A DNA stretch of 64,000 nt from Nocardioides caldifontis (lineage in GTDB: Bacteria > Actinomycetota > Actinomycetes > Propionibacteriales > Nocardioidaceae): assembly GCF_008087345.1 (NCBI RefSeq), contig NZ_VHIB01000001.1, forward strand, positions 1,178,001 to 1,242,000, written 5' to 3'. Below, piece by piece: positions 1,454 to 57,090 of the stretch. The notes beneath the pieces were generated by a model. That model worked only from the letters and a program-made list of their open reading frames with translations. It ran no database searches and had not been told where the DNA came from. The first letter of the stretch is position 1. Each line of letters opens with the position of its first letter. A program made the translations under genes and the position numbers.

Positions 1454-2430
1454 CCACCGAGCAATTCGCCTCGTTCAGCGACAACGCCGTGATGTTCGCG
1501 GGCATCGTCTACGTGCTCGCGACGCTCGGCCACGTGGTCGAGTGGGCGGCCACGCTGGCCCGCCCGGCTGCGGTGCGGTCCGCGGTGGAGACCGCCGTGC
1601 CCGTTGGCGCGGGCGCGCCGGCCGCTGCGTCCTCGACGGCGTCCCCCGAGGACGACCAGCGCTCGGTGCGCATCGAGACCGCCGGGCGGATCGGCGTCGC
1701 GCTGACCGTCGTCGGCACGCTGCTGCTCGCCGCCGGGGTCGTCGCGCGGTCGTTCGCCAGCGACCCGTGGCGGGTGCCGTGGGGGAACATGTACGAGTTC
1801 ACCTTGACCGGCGCCCTCGGCGTCGCCGCGATCTACCTCGCGCTGCTGCCGAGGATGCGGCTGCGGTGGATGGGGCTCTTCGTCACCACGTTCCTCGTCG
1901 TGGTGCTGATGCTGGCGAACCTCACACTGGAGCAGGAGGCCGGGCCGCTGGTCCCCGCCCTGCACTCCTACTGGCTCGTCATCCACGTCGGTGCCGCCAT
2001 CCTCGCGACCGGCGCCTTCGCGGTCGGAGCCCTCACCGCCGGGGTGTTCCTGCTCAAGGCCGGCGTCGAGAGGCGAGGCAGCACGCGGCTGCACGGGCTG
2101 CTCGAGATGTTCCCGAGCTCCGACGCCCTCGACCGGCTCTCCTACCGGCTGCACGCCGTCGGGTTCCCGCTGTGGACCTTCGCGGCCCTCATCGCCGGCC
2201 CGATCTGGGCCGAGTACGCCTGGGGCTCCTACTGGAACTGGGACCCCAAGGAGGTCTGGGCGTTCATCACCTGGGTGATCTACGCGGCGTACCTCCACGC
2301 CCGGGCCACCGCCGGCTGGAAGGGCAAGGCGGCCGCGATCATCGCGCTGATCGGCTTCGCGACGCTGCTGTTCAACTTCGTCGGGATCAACTTCTTCTTC
2401 GGCGCCTCTTCCCAGCACAGCTACGCCTGA
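1450..2430 (+). CDS. ccsB: Cytochrome c biogenesis protein CcsB/ResC (haem handling, WWD domain)
   Basis: This polytopic membrane protein handles haem together with ResB. The GTG at 1450 overlaps the resB stop (GTGA) and gives 326 residues, a normal length. A Trp-rich WWD segment, WGSYWNWDPKEVWAFITW, lies near residue 260, followed by a conserved His-containing stretch and a final membrane segment. About eight hydrophobic segments can be seen. A variable Ala/Pro-rich loop occupies residues 45-65. The last two codons and the stop form the first copy of a 22 bp tandem repeat, so the repeat array begins inside the gene. Confidence 0.93.
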   Translation: MTTEQFASFSDNAVMFAGIVYVLATLGHVVEWAATLARPAAVRSAVETAVPVGAGAPAAASSTASPEDDQRSVRIETAGRIGVALTVVGTLLLAAGVVARSFASDPWRVPWGNMYEFTLTGALGVAAIYLALLPRMRLRWMGLFVTTFLVVVLMLANLTLEQEAGPLVPALHSYWLVIHVGAAILATGAFAVGALTAGVFLLKAGVERRGSTRLHGLLEMFPSSDALDRLSYRLHAVGFPLWTFAALIAGPIWAEYAWGSYWNWDPKEVWAFITWVIYAAYLHARATAGWKGKAAAIIALIGFATLLFNFVGINFFFGASSQHSYA

Positions 2431-2528
2431 GCGGACCCGCTCGTACGCCTGAGCGGACCCGCTCGTACGCCTGAGCGGACCCGCTCGTACGCCTGAGCGG
2501 ACCCGCTCGTACGCCTGAGCGGACCCGG
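2422..2528 (+). repeat. 22 bp tandem repeat, 4.9 copies, overlapping the ccsB stop codon
   Basis: Units start at 2422, 2444, 2466, 2488 and 2510 (the last is partial). Each is TACGCCTGAGCGG followed by ACCCGCTCG, and the full copies are identical. Each copy contains the imperfect palindrome GAGCGGACCCGCTC, which can fold as a short hairpin. The first copy supplies the last Tyr and Ala codons and the stop of ccsB. The array lies directly in the ccsB 3' end, before a family B repeat hairpin. Confidence 0.95.
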
Positions 2529-2530
2529 GT

Positions 2531-2614
2531 GTTGAGCCGCCCCTCGTGGCGCGCGGAACGCGGTTGAGCCGCCCTTCGTGGCGCGGTCGAGCGCGCCACG
2601 AAGGGCGGCTCAAC
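2531..2614. repeat. Family B repeat cluster: two direct units plus one inverted unit forming a 23 bp perfect hairpin
   Basis: Two direct units lie at 2531-2553 and 2563-2585 (period 32), and an inverted unit at 2592-2614. Each begins GTTGAGCCGCCC and ends TGGCGCG in the direction of transcription away from the nearest gene. Units two and three are perfect inverted copies over 23 bp with a 6-base loop. The cluster lies between convergent ccsB and the small gene ending at 2621, so it could act as a bidirectional terminator. Related units occur at 35608-35652 and 57046-57090. Confidence 0.93.
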
Positions 2615-6171: not shown

Positions 6172-7889
6172 CCGACCCCGGGAGCGCCGTGCCCGCCAAC
6201 GCCGCGACGGCGCTCGCCACCACCGTGGTCGACGAGCTGGTCCGTGGCGGGGTCGCGCACGTCGTGCTCAGCCCGGGGTCGCGGTCGGCCGCACTCGCCT
6301 TCGCGGTCCACGACGCCGCGGCCGCAGGTCGACTGACGTTGCACACCCGGATCGACGAGCGCACCGCCGGCTTCCTCGCGCTCGGCATCGCTCGGACCTC
6401 GCGGCGTCCGGTCGCGGTCGTCACGACGAGCGGTACGGCGGTCGCGAACCTGCACCCCGCGGTGCTCGAGGCCTCCCACGCCGGCGTGCCGATCGTGCTC
6501 GTCACCGCCGACAGGCCAGCGTCCCTGCGCGGCACCGGCGCCAACCAGACGACCGACCAGGTGAAGCTCTTCGGAGGGGCGGTCCGGGCGTTCGCGGACG
6601 TGCCGGCCGGGGCTCCCGGGGTCCGCGAGGAGCCCCAGCTCCGGGGGTGGCGAGGGCTGGTCGCCCGCGCGCTGGCCGCCGCGACCGCGGTGGGCTCGCG
6701 GGGACCGGTGCACCTGAACCTCCAGTTCGACGGCCCGCTCGTCCCGGACGTCACGGACGGCTGGTCGACGCCGGTCGCCGGACGGCCCGATGACCGCCCC
6801 TGGACGGCCACCCCGGAGGCGGCGGCCGCCGACGGGTGGGAGGGGCTGGTCGACGACAGCCGGACCGTGGTGGTGGCCGGGGACGACGCCGGCCCGCCGG
6901 CCCGGGTGCTCGCCGAGGTCGGCGGGTGGCCGTTGCTGGCGGAGCCCACCAGTGGGTCCCGGACCGGCACCCACGCGATCCGCACCTACCGGCTGCTGCT
7001 CGGCACCGACCTGGCCGACCGCGTCGACCGCGTCGTCGTCTGCGGCCACCCCACGTTGAGCCGTCCGGTCACCCGGCTGCTCTCGCGCGCCGACGTCGAG
7101 GTGGTGGCCGCGGTCGCGCCCGGAGCAGCGAGCCGCGGCTGGACGGACCCGGGTCACGCGGTGAGCCGGGTCGTGGAGCTGGCGCCGCCGTCGGAGCCGG
7201 CCGAACGACGGGTCACCCCCTGGTTCGAGGAGTGGCGGGAGCGCGACGCCGAGGTCGGCGGTCGGCTCGACGCGCTGCTCGACGGTTGGGCGCCGCTGAC
7301 GCCGCACCACGTGGCCGGTGCCGTGGCCCGGGCCCTGCCGGCCGGCGGGCTGCTGCACGTCGGCGCGTCGAACCCGGTGCGCGACCTCGACCTGATGGTG
7401 CCGCGCTACGACGTCGGCGACCGGCGGATGGTCGTCGCCAACCGGGGGCTCGCCGGGATCGACGGCACCGTCTCCTCCGCGGTCGGTGCCGCGCTCGGCC
7501 GGCCGTACTCCACCCGCTCCCTCGCGCTGCTCGGCGACGTCACGTTCGTCCACGACACGACCGGGCTCGTCCTCGGGCCCGAGGAGCAGCGGCCGCCGCT
7601 CACGCTCGTGGTGGTCAACGACGACGGCGGGAGCATCTTCGCGGTGCTCGAGCAGGGCGCCGACGCGCACGCGGCCTCCTTCGACCGGCTGTTCGGCACC
7701 CCGCACGGCGTGGACCTCGCCGCGCTCTGCGCCGCCACCGGCACCCCGCACACCCGCGTCACCGACCGCGACGCCCTCGACCAGGTGCTGGCGACGCCGC
7801 CGTCCGCGATCGAGGTGGTCGAGGCCGTCGTACGCCGTGACGACCGGCGGCGGCTCGACGAGGCGGTGCGGGAGTTGGCCCGACCCTGA
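6168..7889 (+). CDS. menD: 2-succinyl-5-enolpyruvyl-6-hydroxy-3-cyclohexene-1-carboxylate synthase MenD
   Basis: MenD is the thiamine-diphosphate enzyme that condenses isochorismate with 2-oxoglutarate. It has 573 residues, a usual length. The cofactor-activating Glu is in DERTAGFLALG near residue 63. The ThDP/Mg motif runs from GDVTFVHD to NDDGGSIF (about 455-485). The isochorismate-side motif SPGSRSAAL lies near residue 36. The GTG at 6168 overlaps the menC stop by 4 bp. A CAGGAT box 7 nt upstream could add an internal leaderless promoter. Confidence 0.96.
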   Translation: MTDPGSAVPANAATALATTVVDELVRGGVAHVVLSPGSRSAALAFAVHDAAAAGRLTLHTRIDERTAGFLALGIARTSRRPVAVVTTSGTAVANLHPAVLEASHAGVPIVLVTADRPASLRGTGANQTTDQVKLFGGAVRAFADVPAGAPGVREEPQLRGWRGLVARALAAATAVGSRGPVHLNLQFDGPLVPDVTDGWSTPVAGRPDDRPWTATPEAAAADGWEGLVDDSRTVVVAGDDAGPPARVLAEVGGWPLLAEPTSGSRTGTHAIRTYRLLLGTDLADRVDRVVVCGHPTLSRPVTRLLSRADVEVVAAVAPGAASRGWTDPGHAVSRVVELAPPSEPAERRVTPWFEEWRERDAEVGGRLDALLDGWAPLTPHHVAGAVARALPAGGLLHVGASNPVRDLDLMVPRYDVGDRRMVVANRGLAGIDGTVSSAVGAALGRPYSTRSLALLGDVTFVHDTTGLVLGPEEQRPPLTLVVVNDDGGSIFAVLEQGADAHAASFDRLFGTPHGVDLAALCAATGTPHTRVTDRDALDQVLATPPSAIEVVEAVVRRDDRRRLDEAVRELARP

Positions 7890-9780: not shown

Positions 9781-9807
9781 CCCGGCGCCTCTGGTTGCAT
9801 GGGGCGG

Positions 9808-10443
9808 ATGAGGATCACGAAGTTCGGCCACTCCTGCGTCCGCCTCTCCGCGACCTCCGACGTCGTCATCGACCCGGGCGGCTGGTCGGAGCGCGAGGCC
9901 CTCGACGGCGTCGCCGCCGTGCTGGTCACCCACGAGCACCCCGACCACTGGACGGTCGACCAGCTCCGTGCGACGGACGCTCCGGTCTTCACGATCGCCG
10001 CCGTCGCCGACCGGATCCGGGACGCCGACCCGGTGGTGGCCGAGCGCCTGACCGTCGTACGGCCGGGGGAGGAGCTCGACGTCGCCGGCTTCTCGGTCCG
10101 CGTCATCGGTGAGAAGCACGCCGTCATCCACCCGGAGCTCACCCACTTCGACAACTCCGGCTACTTGGTGTCGGACGGTGACTCGACCTTGTTCCACCCG
10201 GGCGACTCGTTCACCCGCCCCGGCCAGCAGGTCGACGTCTTCTGCGCCCCGGCCTGTGCCCCCTGGGCCAAGATGTCCGAGCTCGTCGACCTGGCCCGCG
10301 ACGTGGCCGCGCCACGCTCGCTGGCCATCCACGACAAGGTCTACAGCGACCTCGGGCTCGGCGTCGTCGACCGCACGATGGGGCAGTTCCTCGAGCCCGT
10401 CGGCTCGACCTGGCACCGCCTGGAGCCCGGCTCCGACCTCTGA
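9808..10443 (+). CDS. MBL-fold metal-dependent hydrolase (UlaG-like)
   Basis: This small soluble metallo-beta-lactamase-fold protein has 211 residues. The metal motif THEHPDHW (H-x-H-x-D-H) is near residue 46, and further metal-binding positions appear in VIHPELTHFDN, LFHPGDSF and AIHDKVYSD. The ATG at 9808 starts the MRITKFGHSCVRL strand typical of the family; an ATG at 9799 in frame would add three residues. A weak TTGCAT box lies 7 nt upstream. The substrate cannot be told. The stop is followed after 2 nt by family A repeats. Confidence 0.85.
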   Translation: MRITKFGHSCVRLSATSDVVIDPGGWSEREALDGVAAVLVTHEHPDHWTVDQLRATDAPVFTIAAVADRIRDADPVVAERLTVVRPGEELDVAGFSVRVIGEKHAVIHPELTHFDNSGYLVSDGDSTLFHPGDSFTRPGQQVDVFCAPACAPWAKMSELVDLARDVAAPRSLAIHDKVYSDLGLGVVDRTMGQFLEPVGSTWHRLEPGSDL

Positions 10444-10445
10444 CC

Positions 10446-10678
10446 GCCGAGTCGTCGCATCTTCACGGTCGGGGAGCGCCGAGTCGTCGCATCTTCCTGG
10501 TCCGGCCGCGGGAGCGGTGGGAGTCGGCCCCCCCGTGGTGCACCAGATTCCCACCGATCCGGCACGCCCTTGCCCGAGACGTGCGCGCGACTGGTGAAGA
10601 TGCGACGACTCGACGCCGCTACCGGGTGAAGATGCGACGACTCGGCGTCGATCCGGCGTGAAGATGCGACGGGTCGGC
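10446..10678. repeat. Family A composite repeat: two plus three 21 bp units in inverted arrangement around a 95 bp core
   Basis: Left units are at 10446-10466 and 10478-10498. Right units, inverted, are at 10594-10614, 10626-10646 and 10658-10678. The shared core reads GAGTCGTCGCATCTTCAC going away from each flanking gene. Units repeat every 32 bp, with 11 bp variable spacers. The central 95 bp contains a GGTGGGA/TCCCACC stem (10516-10522 and 10549-10555). The element fills the gap between convergent genes and begins 2-3 nt after each stop codon. A second copy is at 32016-32261. Confidence 0.95.
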
Positions 10679-10681
10679 GGG

Positions 10682-11932
10682 CTAGGTGGTGAGGGCGTTG
10701 ACCACGGGGACGAACTTGGCCCGGGCCTCCGCGAGCTCGGCGGCGGGGTCGGAGTCGGCGACGATGCCGCACCCCGCGAAGAGCCGGACGGTCGAACCGG
10801 ACAGGTGGCCGGACCGGAGCGCGATGCCCCACTCGCCGTCGCCGGAGCCGTCCATCCAGCCGACCGGTCCCGCGTAGCGGCCCCGGTCCATCCCCTCGAT
10901 CTCCGCGATCAGCCGGGTGGCCGACGCGGTCGGGGTGCCGCCCACGGCTGCGGACGGGTGCAGGGCGGCGGCGAGCTCGAGGGAGGAGGCGCCGTCCTCG
11001 ATCACCCCGGCCACGTCGGTGGCGAGGTGCATGACGTTGGGCAGGTGGAGGACGAACGGCGCCTCGGGGACGTTCATCGACGTGCAGTGCGGGGCGAGGG
11101 CGTCGGCCACCGAGCGGACGGCGTACTCGTGCTCCTCGAGGTCCTTCGAGGACCTGGCCAGCGACGCGGCGAGCTGGAGGTCGCGGGCGTCGTCGCCGGT
11201 GCGGCGGATGGTGCCGGCGAGCACCCGCGAGGTGACGAGGCCGCGCTCGCGGCGCACCAGCATCTCCGGGGTCGCACCGAAGAGCGAGTCGACGTGGAAG
11301 GTCCAGCAGGAGGGGTACTCCTCCGACAGCCGCTGCAGCGGCCACCGCACGTCGACCGGCGCGGAGGCGTGGGCCAGCAGGTCCCGCGCGAGGACGACTT
11401 TCTCGAGCTCACCCGCGGCGATCCGGCGTACGGCGTCCGCGACCACGGCCTGCCACTGCGCCCCGTCGAGCGACCCGTCGGAGAACGTGACGTCCTCCGG
11501 CGCCGGGGGCGGGGACGCGACGTGCAGGTCGGTCGGGGCGGTGATCGACGCCGCGGCGATGTGGGTGACCCAGCAGTGGCCGTCGCGGCGCCCCACGACC
11601 ACCTCCGGTACGACGAGGGTGCTGTCGCCGGGCTCGTCGGCGAAGGCGAACGATCCGAAGGCGAGGAGCCCCGACCCTGGCGCGGAGACCTCGTCGCGGA
11701 CCACGGCCCGCCGGCGGAGCCCGTCCCACCAGTCGTGGGCGTCGGCGAACCGGGTGGCCCCGGAGGTGCGGACCTGGGCGGCGACGCCCCACCCGACGAC
11801 GCCGTCGCCCCGGCGGACCCAGGCGACCAGCTCGTCCTCGGGCAGCAGCGCCAGGAGGTCCCCGGGATCCTCGACGGGGACGGTGCGGACGACGAGCGAG
11901 ATGGCGTCGTGCTGCGCCGGGCTGGTCGTCAC
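10682..11932 (-). CDS. menF: Isochorismate synthase MenF
   Basis: MenF converts chorismate to isochorismate, the entry step of menaquinone synthesis. The 416-residue protein has the chorismate-binding domain in its C-terminal two thirds. GELEKVVLARD (about residue 178) includes the catalytic Lys, SRVLAGTIRRT lies near 240, HPSAAVGGTP near 325 and the C-terminal GCGIVADSDP near 390. A salicylate synthase or related enzyme is possible, but the men setting favours MenF. The GTG at 11932 has no Shine-Dalgarno sequence and follows a TAGGCT box by 8 nt. It is divergent from the aldo/keto reductase. Confidence 0.92.
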   Translation of the reverse strand: MTTSPAQHDAISLVVRTVPVEDPGDLLALLPEDELVAWVRRGDGVVGWGVAAQVRTSGATRFADAHDWWDGLRRRAVVRDEVSAPGSGLLAFGSFAFADEPGDSTLVVPEVVVGRRDGHCWVTHIAAASITAPTDLHVASPPPAPEDVTFSDGSLDGAQWQAVVADAVRRIAAGELEKVVLARDLLAHASAPVDVRWPLQRLSEEYPSCWTFHVDSLFGATPEMLVRRERGLVTSRVLAGTIRRTGDDARDLQLAASLARSSKDLEEHEYAVRSVADALAPHCTSMNVPEAPFVLHLPNVMHLATDVAGVIEDGASSLELAAALHPSAAVGGTPTASATRLIAEIEGMDRGRYAGPVGWMDGSGDGEWGIALRSGHLSGSTVRLFAGCGIVADSDPAAELAEARAKFVPVVNALTT

Positions 11933-32015: not shown

Positions 32016-32261
32016 GCCGACCCGTCGCATCTTCACGCGGAATTGGCGCCGAGCCGTCGCATCTTCACGCGGAACTGGCGCCGAGCCGTCGCATCTTCAC
32101 CGCTTTCGGTGCCGAGCCGGCGGGTCCTGCCGACCTCCACTGGCGCTGCGGGAGCCGCCCGCATGGTGGCGGCGGCCCGTCGGCAAGCCGGCTCGACCCT
32201 CTGGGCCTGTGAAGATGCGACGACTCGGCGGTGTTCTGGCGTGAAGATGCGACGACTCGGC
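32016..32261. repeat. Family A composite repeat, copy 2: three plus two units in inverted arrangement
   Basis: Left units are at 32016-32036, 32048-32068 and 32080-32100, with a degenerate fourth at about 32111. Inverted right units are at 32209-32229 and 32241-32261. The period is again exactly 32 bp. Left spacers are GCGGAATTGGC and GCGGAACTGGC, one base apart. The central 108 bp is not clearly related to the core of the 10446-10678 copy. The element lies between the convergent prenyl synthase and PhoX genes and accounts for almost all of the gap from 32009 to 32292. Confidence 0.95.
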
Positions 32262-35607: not shown

Positions 35608-35652
35608 CGCGCCACGAGGGGCGGCTCAACGCGCCACGAGGGGCGGCTCGAC
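35608..35652. repeat. Family B repeat, two tandem units downstream of rarD
   Basis: Two 23 bp units at 35608-35630 and 35630-35652 share one base (period 22). Read in the rarD direction they run from GTTGAGCCGCCC (GTCGAGCCGCCC in the proximal unit) to TGGCGCG. They begin 7 nt after the rarD stop and lie upstream of the ArsR promoter. Orientation relative to the gene end is the same as at 2531-2614 and 57046-57090. Confidence 0.93.
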
Positions 35653-47608: not shown

Positions 47609-47681
47609 GCCGGTGTAGCTCAGTTGGTAGAGCGCCTCACTTGTAATGAGGATGTCGCGGGTTCGACTCCTGTCACCGGCT
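47609..47681 (+). tRNA. tRNA-Thr (anticodon UGU)
   Basis: The cloverleaf is complete: acceptor stem GCCGGTG with CACCGGC, D stem GCTC with GAGC, anticodon stem CCTCA with TGAGG around CTTGTAA, and a T arm with TTCGACT. The anticodon TGT reads ACA and other Thr codons. The discriminator is T at 47681, followed by CCG, so the CCA end is not fully encoded. Confidence 0.96.
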
Positions 47682-57045: not shown

Positions 57046-57090
57046 CGCGCCACGAGGGGCGGCTCAACGCGCCACGAGGGGCGGCTCGAC
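57046..57090. repeat. Family B repeat, two tandem units downstream of the dioxygenase gene
   Basis: Two 23 bp units (57046-57068 and 57068-57090, period 22) are almost identical to those at 35608-35652. A partial third unit, GGGCGGCTCAC, precedes them at about 57035. Read in the direction of the dioxygenase gene, the units begin GTTGAGCC or GTCGAGCC and start 14 nt after its stop codon. Confidence 0.93.

Follow-up and report, generated by a model that had tools for sequence, protein, structure and literature searches.

The stretch of DNA analysed here, referred to as the window, comprises 64,000 nucleotides of the genome of Nocardioides caldifontis. A gene encoding a protein with a metallo-beta-lactamase fold (9799..10443, plus strand) and a chorismate-binding, menF-like gene (10682..11932, minus strand), both assigned by gene call and Pfam, converge on a region holding five 21 bp units of a repeat designated family A, so that each gene carries an array at its 3' end. 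Two units are on the plus strand, at 10446..10466, 2 nt after the TGA stop codon at 10441-10443, and at 10478..10498, with a period of 32. The other three are inverted, at 10594..10614 (distal), 10626..10646 (middle) and 10658..10678, the last carrying the first-unit head GACCCG and lying 3 nt from the stop of the menF-like gene at 10682. Thus, the initial annotation, which had described five 21 bp units in two inverted sets between convergent genes, each set starting 2-3 nt past a stop codon, was borne out in both respects. The 18-bp core of family A, with up to three mismatches, has 10 occurrences in the window, where 0.14 would be expected.

Other arrays of family A and of a second family, B, lie elsewhere in the window. 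After the stop of the polyprenyl synthase gene (32008) there are three family A units (32016..32100, plus strand), followed 31 nt past the last A core by a distal unit of an older type (32114..32131, plus strand), and two A units on the minus strand mark the 3' end of the PhoX gene (32209..32261). Family B is represented by two units downstream of ccsB (2532..2584, plus strand), one unit at the 3' end of the small gene 2621-2848 (2593..2613, minus strand), and two minus-strand pairs with 22-bp spacing at the 3' ends of an EamA gene (35609..35651) and of a LigB-type gene (57047..57089). The period of exactly 32 bp previously given for the units therefore applies to the site at 10446-10678 and not to the B pairs at 35609 and 57047. 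It had also been proposed that the two families abut eight gene ends in the window, always in the same orientation. The orientation is indeed the same at 8/8 gene ends, with wrong-way exceptions elsewhere in the genome, and the abutment fails at ccsB, where the first B unit is 101 nt past the stop, behind 22-bp tandem copies (2420..2530, plus strand) that repeat the stop codon and whose sequence is unlike A and B. This 22-bp sequence, which includes the ccsB stop, occurs about five times head to tail, possibly as a young array with the same period. Pfam assigned the array-bearing genes of the window to cytochrome c assembly, metallo-beta-lactamase fold, chorismate binding, polyprenyl synthase, PhoX, EamA and LigB, with no match for the 75-aa gene at 2621. 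No known structured RNA family was found in the 10 sources compared with Rfam, where the gathering score was reached solely by a tRNA at 47609-47681.

In the whole genome the inner 12-mer of family A has 115 exact copies (62 forward, 53 reverse), while its reversed control has none. The family B core (TTGAGCCGCCCYTCGTGGC) has 92 exact copies, and a longer B pattern with at most two mismatches has 236. Sixty stretches of the genome were fetched around A and B places and the units in them were scored, with genes called by a home-made codon-usage caller trained on sequence of the same genome. Together with the window, these stretches (L044-L103) cover all 100 listed A places, two further single A places lying beyond these, and miss 21 of the 92 exact B places, at the end of contig C5 and on C7, C8, C10 and C15. 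As the stretches were picked around units, counts by intergenic type are not genome-unbiased. The resulting set has 91 arrays of at least two units, 45 of family A and 46 of family B, and the two families behave alike.

The arrays are placed and oriented with respect to stop codons. For 31/45 A and 32/46 B arrays a same-sense stop is found no more than 60 nt away on the 5' side, at a median stop-to-core distance of 10 nt and 8.5 nt, respectively, and no same-sense called stop is present within 60 nt in 14/45 and 14/46. A right-way stop alone was found for 48 of the 91 arrays (25 A and 23 B) and a wrong-way stop alone for four (3 A and 1 B). The tabulation of distance and orientation proposed in the initial annotation agreed with its expectation, and the fetched parts of the genome do not display the random positions and orientations relative to stops that it had named as contrary evidence. 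Gene starts lie on the 5' side of four A arrays and of no B array, and five arrays (1 A, 4 B) are inside called genes. Eight B arrays overlap the stop of their own gene, seven of them by TTGA, the unit thus supplying the TGA. Among units, 60 of family A and 89 of family B lie between convergent genes, 37 and 33 behind a same-sense gene, 20 and 13 antisense between tandem genes, 15 and 7 in divergent gaps, and 10 and 21 inside called genes, with four B units at the edge of a stretch. Between tandem genes, it is the inverted half of a two-sided element that points against the neighbouring gene.

The same orientation is kept by arrays that stand on one side. When no opposite array is present within 1.6 kb, a sense stop only was found in 16 cases, a wrong-way stop only in three, both in 12 and neither in six; the wrong-way three are all single units, and two more arrays without a partner by this criterion are inside called genes. 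This count disregards weak opposite units. A stricter count that takes them as partners gave 11 right-way only, two wrong-way only, 10 both and six neither (p 0.02). Limited to arrays with two or more units, it gave nine, zero, eight and five, respectively (p 0.004). According to these data the rule that units point away from the stop is strong in this genome, though not absolute. Nearby tRNA genes were considered for the exceptional arrays and rejected, with tRNAs at 2/17 loci, in each case over 1.5 kb away from the array.

Forward arrays or units followed by inverted ones within 1.5 kb, which we call facing pairs, number 36, and both members belong to one family in 35 (20 A-A and 15 B-B, with 1 A-B). 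With at least two units per side, 26/27 pairs are family-matched, and none of 100,000 permutations reached either observed value. Seven matched pairs are 370-1098 bp apart, with called genes between the halves at five loci. The matching recurs in eight genomes that hold both a 22-bp and a 32-bp class of array (described below), in which 25/25 pairs are matched (15 of the 22-bp and 10 of the 32-bp class) and none is mixed. This count derives from 32 loci chosen by matches of either model, with L182 and L260, which are the same locus, counted once, and leaves out the one-strand loci L188, L192, L194, L195 and L335 and overlapping matches on both strands at L247. That facing arrays of two convergent genes are of the same family would mean that one factor serves both; the matching could also reflect common descent of a two-sided element. 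As to the genes between or beside facing halves, their role as mobile cassettes was rejected, since Pfam returned SnoaL-like, UDG, dienelactone hydrolase, cupin and AbiEi_4 domains, one gene without a match, and no transposase family among the seven genes; MarR, and an REase domain beside AbiEi_4, fell below the cut-off. The gene at L072 5436-6443, between facing A arrays, is the one with the AbiEi_4 domain, in addition to REase_MTES_1575 below the cut-off, and is perhaps an inserted defence-type gene.

The internal structure of the arrays is also regular. Same-strand neighbours of family A within 70 nt (n=83) are spaced by 32 in 74 cases, by 31 in three, by 33 in five and by 64 in one, and those of family B (n=79) by 22 (5), 31 (3), 32 (30), 33 (37), 34 (3) and 36 (1). 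The variable spacers of 11 bp noted earlier held up, as 65 of 70 distinct A spacers have this length. The mean difference is 27% between consecutive A spacers of equal length, 59% between random A spacers and 7% between cores (kept at 93%), so that the core and the length of the spacer are held while spacer sequences diverge. Some neighbouring spacers are identical, which indicates that units grow by tandem duplication. Moreover, the arrays are polar. The head GACCCG is present in the first unit of 16/45 A arrays and in 7/83 later units (p 0.0002), and the older unit type GASYCGGCGCRTCYTGCC lies in register at +31/+32 past the last A unit in 18/45 arrays, while all remaining offsets between 19 and 57 gave a single match. 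Toward the stop codon, 3/45 arrays have it at 31 or 32, and it also occurs at two other offsets below 58 (18/45 versus 3/45, Fisher p 0.0003). This unit was scored with up to four mismatches from a consensus derived from arrays carrying such units, and it resembles the normal unit of four other genomes (G015, G182, G248 and G288).

A tandem scan that is blind to the motif, applied to noncoding DNA of ten sampled genomes, returned 34 regions lying no further than 60 nt from a stop, in which periods of 22 (7 regions; G002, G012, G198, G283) and 32 (7; G012, G242, G283) are the modes and no other period exceeds three. Away from stops it returned 29 regions, with periods of 32 (5), 30 (4), 19 (3) and 22 (2), and thus the excess of period 32 is not limited to gene ends; shuffled noncoding DNA gave four regions in all. 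Periods of 22 and 32 would correspond to two and three helical turns of DNA (about 21 and 31.5 bp), but RNA read in steps of about 11 nt would suit them too.

The core itself seems restricted to this species. The A core has no copy in four further genomes of the genus, and its pair pattern was found in 1/294 genomes of the family, which is N. caldifontis alone. We rejected the idea that the exact A core has spread beyond this species, as the genome collection contains nine single 18-mer matches and about 7-8 are expected by chance. The layout, on the other hand, recurs with other cores. In G002, of the same genus, there are 22-bp arrays (CGCGAARCGTCACTCGTGCACG), several of them directly behind stop codons. 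A model of the 22-bp dimer matched at least 45/294 genomes of the family in 8/26 genera, at least 32 of which matched twice or more, and a model of the 32-bp dimer, trained on arrays of N. caldifontis and four other genomes, matched at least 72/294 in 5/26 genera, at least 62 with two or more; the counts are lower bounds, since 17-22 candidates were scored per genome. Across the class the 22-bp model matched at least 10/374 genomes, namely one member of the family with eight matches and nine genomes with one weak match each, eight of which fall outside the family; single matches near the cut-off mean little. As the class-level matches are almost all single and weak, this sequence family looks confined to the family. 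One genome of the same genus, G001, had no array by eye in 200 kb and no match to either model. In a genome of another family (G295), inspection by eye revealed a 31-bp tandem array of other sequence that fills the gap between convergent genes (L333 381-463).

At 32/44 best-match loci of the relatives (16/21 for the 32-bp and 16/23 for the 22-bp model) a same-sense stop is found on the 5' side at a distance of 150 nt or less. There is a right-way stop only at 11, a wrong-way stop only at six, both at 21 and neither at six. For these 44 loci genes were called with the codon model of N. caldifontis, one short 32-bp locus was dropped, and one locus belongs to N. caldifontis itself. Without the six loci used in training (L182, L184, L185, L186, L189 and L351), the same-sense stop is found in 27/38, with eight right-way only, six wrong-way only, 19 both and five neither. 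In the relatives, therefore, the presence of a same-sense stop is strong and the excess of right-way over wrong-way stops is small.

Array positions are sometimes common to relatives with the sequence replaced, and often they are not. Reciprocal best pairs between G002 and our stretches include two genes, one of them ccsB, that carry arrays in both genomes, while pairs of G259 with our stretches and of G002 with G259 gave no shared array position (the table counts each pair up to twice). By eye, and counting N. caldifontis itself, arrays are present at 3/30 ccsB 3' ends (N. caldifontis, G002 with 22 bp and G015 with 32 bp) and at 3/30 menF ends. The latter are those of N. caldifontis, of G003, which has a 32 bp array with another core in the same intergenic region, and of G019 (L320), in which units of 22-23 bp and other sequence lie directly behind the stop codon. 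Some of the ccsB and menF ends without an array have a plain stem-loop. The low occurrence at these two genes and the mostly unshared positions indicate that a given gene can do without the element.

Short repeats at gene ends bring to mind the REP elements, which in the species shown in PMC3733652 lie within 20 bp of gene 3' ends, and which are described in PMC3733652 and PMC3116915 as having an imperfect palindromic core, forming inverted doublets with head-to-tail dimers rare, and depending on a dedicated RAYT transposase. Our arrays are like REP, BIME and REPIN elements in being short, high-copy, intergenic and near gene 3' ends, in occupying mainly convergent or same-direction gaps, in their species-specific sequence and in their inverted facing pairs (PMC3733652, PMC3116915). 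The extragenic location near gene 3' ends indeed applies, save for the 10 A and 21 B units in called genes. However, our units are not palindromic: the longest self-stem is 3-4 bp, as in shuffles (P 0.47-0.92 for eight units), whereas a published REP core gave P 0.008. They follow one another head to tail with a period of roughly 22 or 32 bp (at distances up to 70 nt there are 83 A and 79 B neighbours of this kind, as opposed to 36 facing pairs), they keep their orientation to the stop codon even when one-sided, and their first and last units are polar. No transposase was found among the few genes examined beside arrays, and none is included in the 25 most frequent of the 119 Pfam families assigned to 62 genes that carry arrays. 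Membership in the REP/REPIN group was thus rejected on the palindrome and head-to-tail tests, and a phage or plasmid origin was also rejected, as the 10446-10678 site has no match in phage or plasmid records and the exact 32-bp and 22-bp class consensus patterns have none in viral contigs. A broader explanation is that of a repeat without host function, spread by a REPIN-like two-sided element or by gene conversion, whose copies at 3' ends are those that purifying selection spares. The high copy number in 1/294 genomes, the single family of facing pairs, with genes between matched halves at five loci, and the mostly unshared positions agree with it, as does the REP precedent of PMC3733652; cores changed in concert between species, together with facing pairs, leave room for such behaviour. 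Concerted spread of this kind is a serious rival, and the main one, explaining the matching, the species specificity and the unshared positions; what it does not explain is why one-sided arrays hold their orientation. Tolerance alone leaves the orientation unaccounted for. The dominance of non-palindromic, head-to-tail units, the lack of a transposase family in the seven genes between or beside halves, the lack of phage, plasmid and viral matches given above, and the recurrence of some positions at orthologous gene ends also weigh against it, and we consider it unlikely. The suggestion of the initial annotation that the units look like a protein- or RNA-level signal tied to transcript ends rather than a random mobile repeat is upheld as regards the position and orientation tied to stops; a role as a signal, on RNA or on DNA, is tentative, and the units may be mobile.

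Bidirectional intrinsic terminators of convergent genes lie between such genes and are able to form stems, and our two-sided sites share both properties. A further rival reading is that forward and inverted units pair, in either transcript, as an ordinary terminator hairpin, the extra units being by-products. On average, neither single units (mean z 0.19 for A and -0.52 for B) nor arrays folded without a partner (0.79 and -0.69; below -2 in 1/45 A and 6/46 B) fold better than shuffles, while with 300 nt of downstream sequence z falls below -2 in 27/45 A and 25/46 B, as expected when the inverted partner follows. Some sites are, by eye, near-perfect palindromes or have a central hairpin. However, some arrays have no partner at all, other partners are 370-1098 bp away with genes between them at five loci, and no T run behind a stem was found at the sole site scanned (10300-10800, around 10446-10678). 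Moreover, facing units at 12 family A sites are no more similar within a site than between sites (0.8435 versus 0.8388, p 0.30), nor are they at nine sites of G259 (p 0.97 for the mean, 0.82 for the best pair); six sites of G002 gave p 0.10 for the mean and 0.05 for the best pair, a weak hint toward pairing. With limited power and this one contrary hint, there is no clear covariation and no good sign of selection for pairing of the facing arms, and this, with the lack of a partnerless fold, weighs against an RNA stem. Hairpin terminators were rejected as the selected feature, and ordinary terminators seem improbable to us. The units could act instead as single-stranded sites in the 3' untranslated RNA, where Rho or another RNA-binding protein would end or protect the transcript. 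They are mostly in the sense strand of the preceding gene, partnerless A arrays fold slightly worse than shuffles (mean z +0.79), and A units have an excess of C over G (skew 0.175, control 0.035). B units, however, lack this excess (-0.044), on which ground Rho rut sites were rejected; Rho alone would not require a core of 18-21 bp kept at 93%, and an RNA signal leaves it unexplained that arrays facing each other on two separate mRNAs share a family. Taken together we regard an RNA-level signal as rather unlikely, though still worth keeping in mind. The home-made codon-usage caller behind the gene calls might raise the suspicion of an artefact of assembly, gene calling or chance, which is hardly credible given 115 A cores against none for the reversed control and the same layout in other genomes.

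The non-palindromic units and facing arrays without clear covariation fit REP elements and plain hairpins poorly. What we observe in N. caldifontis and its relatives, that is, position, orientation, polarity, constancy of spacing, family matching of facing arrays and other cores in relatives, leads us to infer a factor, its binding to DNA and its effect on transcription. A factor that reads units at gene ends would fit the orientation, the conserved core with a spacer constrained in length alone, the polarity, the matching and the lack of clear covariation, and since the arrays of two separate genes match, a DNA-acting factor is easier to understand. Our tentative preference, held at somewhat less than even confidence, is thus that the gene-end arrays are read unit by unit by a putative sequence-specific factor, on DNA rather than RNA, which stops or marks transcription. 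Each unit of about 21 bp would be a site for this factor, and the units would be stacked at intervals of about 21-22 or 32-33 bp, equal to two or three helical turns, all one way, outward from the stop codon. The factor, likelier on DNA than on RNA, would stop or mark transcription at the end of the unit. Both sides of a convergent pair would carry arrays of the same family, with one factor for both, and between species the preferred core would change and the arrays would be rewritten with the layout kept.

A comparable arrangement is known from mammalian rDNA, behind which clustered sites for a terminator protein (TTF-I, Sal box) stop RNA polymerase (PMC3772059, PMC11358750). Both cases have short, clustered, oriented sites, which in ours lie behind coding regions. 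TTF-I is eukaryotic and serves one gene type, whereas the arrays described here are bacterial and lie behind dozens of ordinary genes, so that this is an analogy only. A more far-reaching proposal, which we regard as doubtful, is a gene-end code used by a bacterial family and read by protein, in which one-way arrays of sites two or three turns apart behind stop codons would let a factor block RNA polymerase from that side, facing arrays of neighbouring genes would have to rely on the same factor (a convergent rule), and factor and sites would change together too fast for congeners to share the code.

Like our arrays, mycobacterial interspersed repetitive units and further tandem repeats of intergenic DNA are direct, lie between genes and are oriented with the gene. 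They have longer units and are not known to form facing matched arrays or to have periods of two or three turns. DNA uptake sequences that double as terminators are mostly single or paired short sites without phasing; by description, they share with our repeats a short oriented form, often inverted at gene ends, and differ from them in that ours form phased arrays. A partial literature search found no prior description of these arrays, which is weak evidence of novelty. How transcripts end without classical U-tract terminators is poorly understood in high-GC actinobacteria, and one-way repeats of near-fixed period that are specific to gene ends and rewritten between sister species offer a handle on this question. 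Even as a mere spreading repeat they would depart from the palindromes by which known gene-end repeats are marked, and would allow a test of how orientation relates to transcription.

Several other repeats were seen along the way. At L187, L188, L194 and L200, near 1540-1570, a central stem-loop between 21-bp arrays consists of the last unit (with GGC for GTC) and its inverse. A repeat with a period of 62 bp and inverted arms is present at 7009 in G001 and at 103639, 110280 and 178569 in G002 (sample coordinates). The sample of G002 also has, at 64825-74800, clustered, long palindromic repeats that are REP-like (GGTCTCGACGACGCTCGC...), with periods of about 45-66. Finally, a 14-bp tandem holding TGA is repeated about 10 times between convergent genes of G242 (sample 96146-96284, L245).
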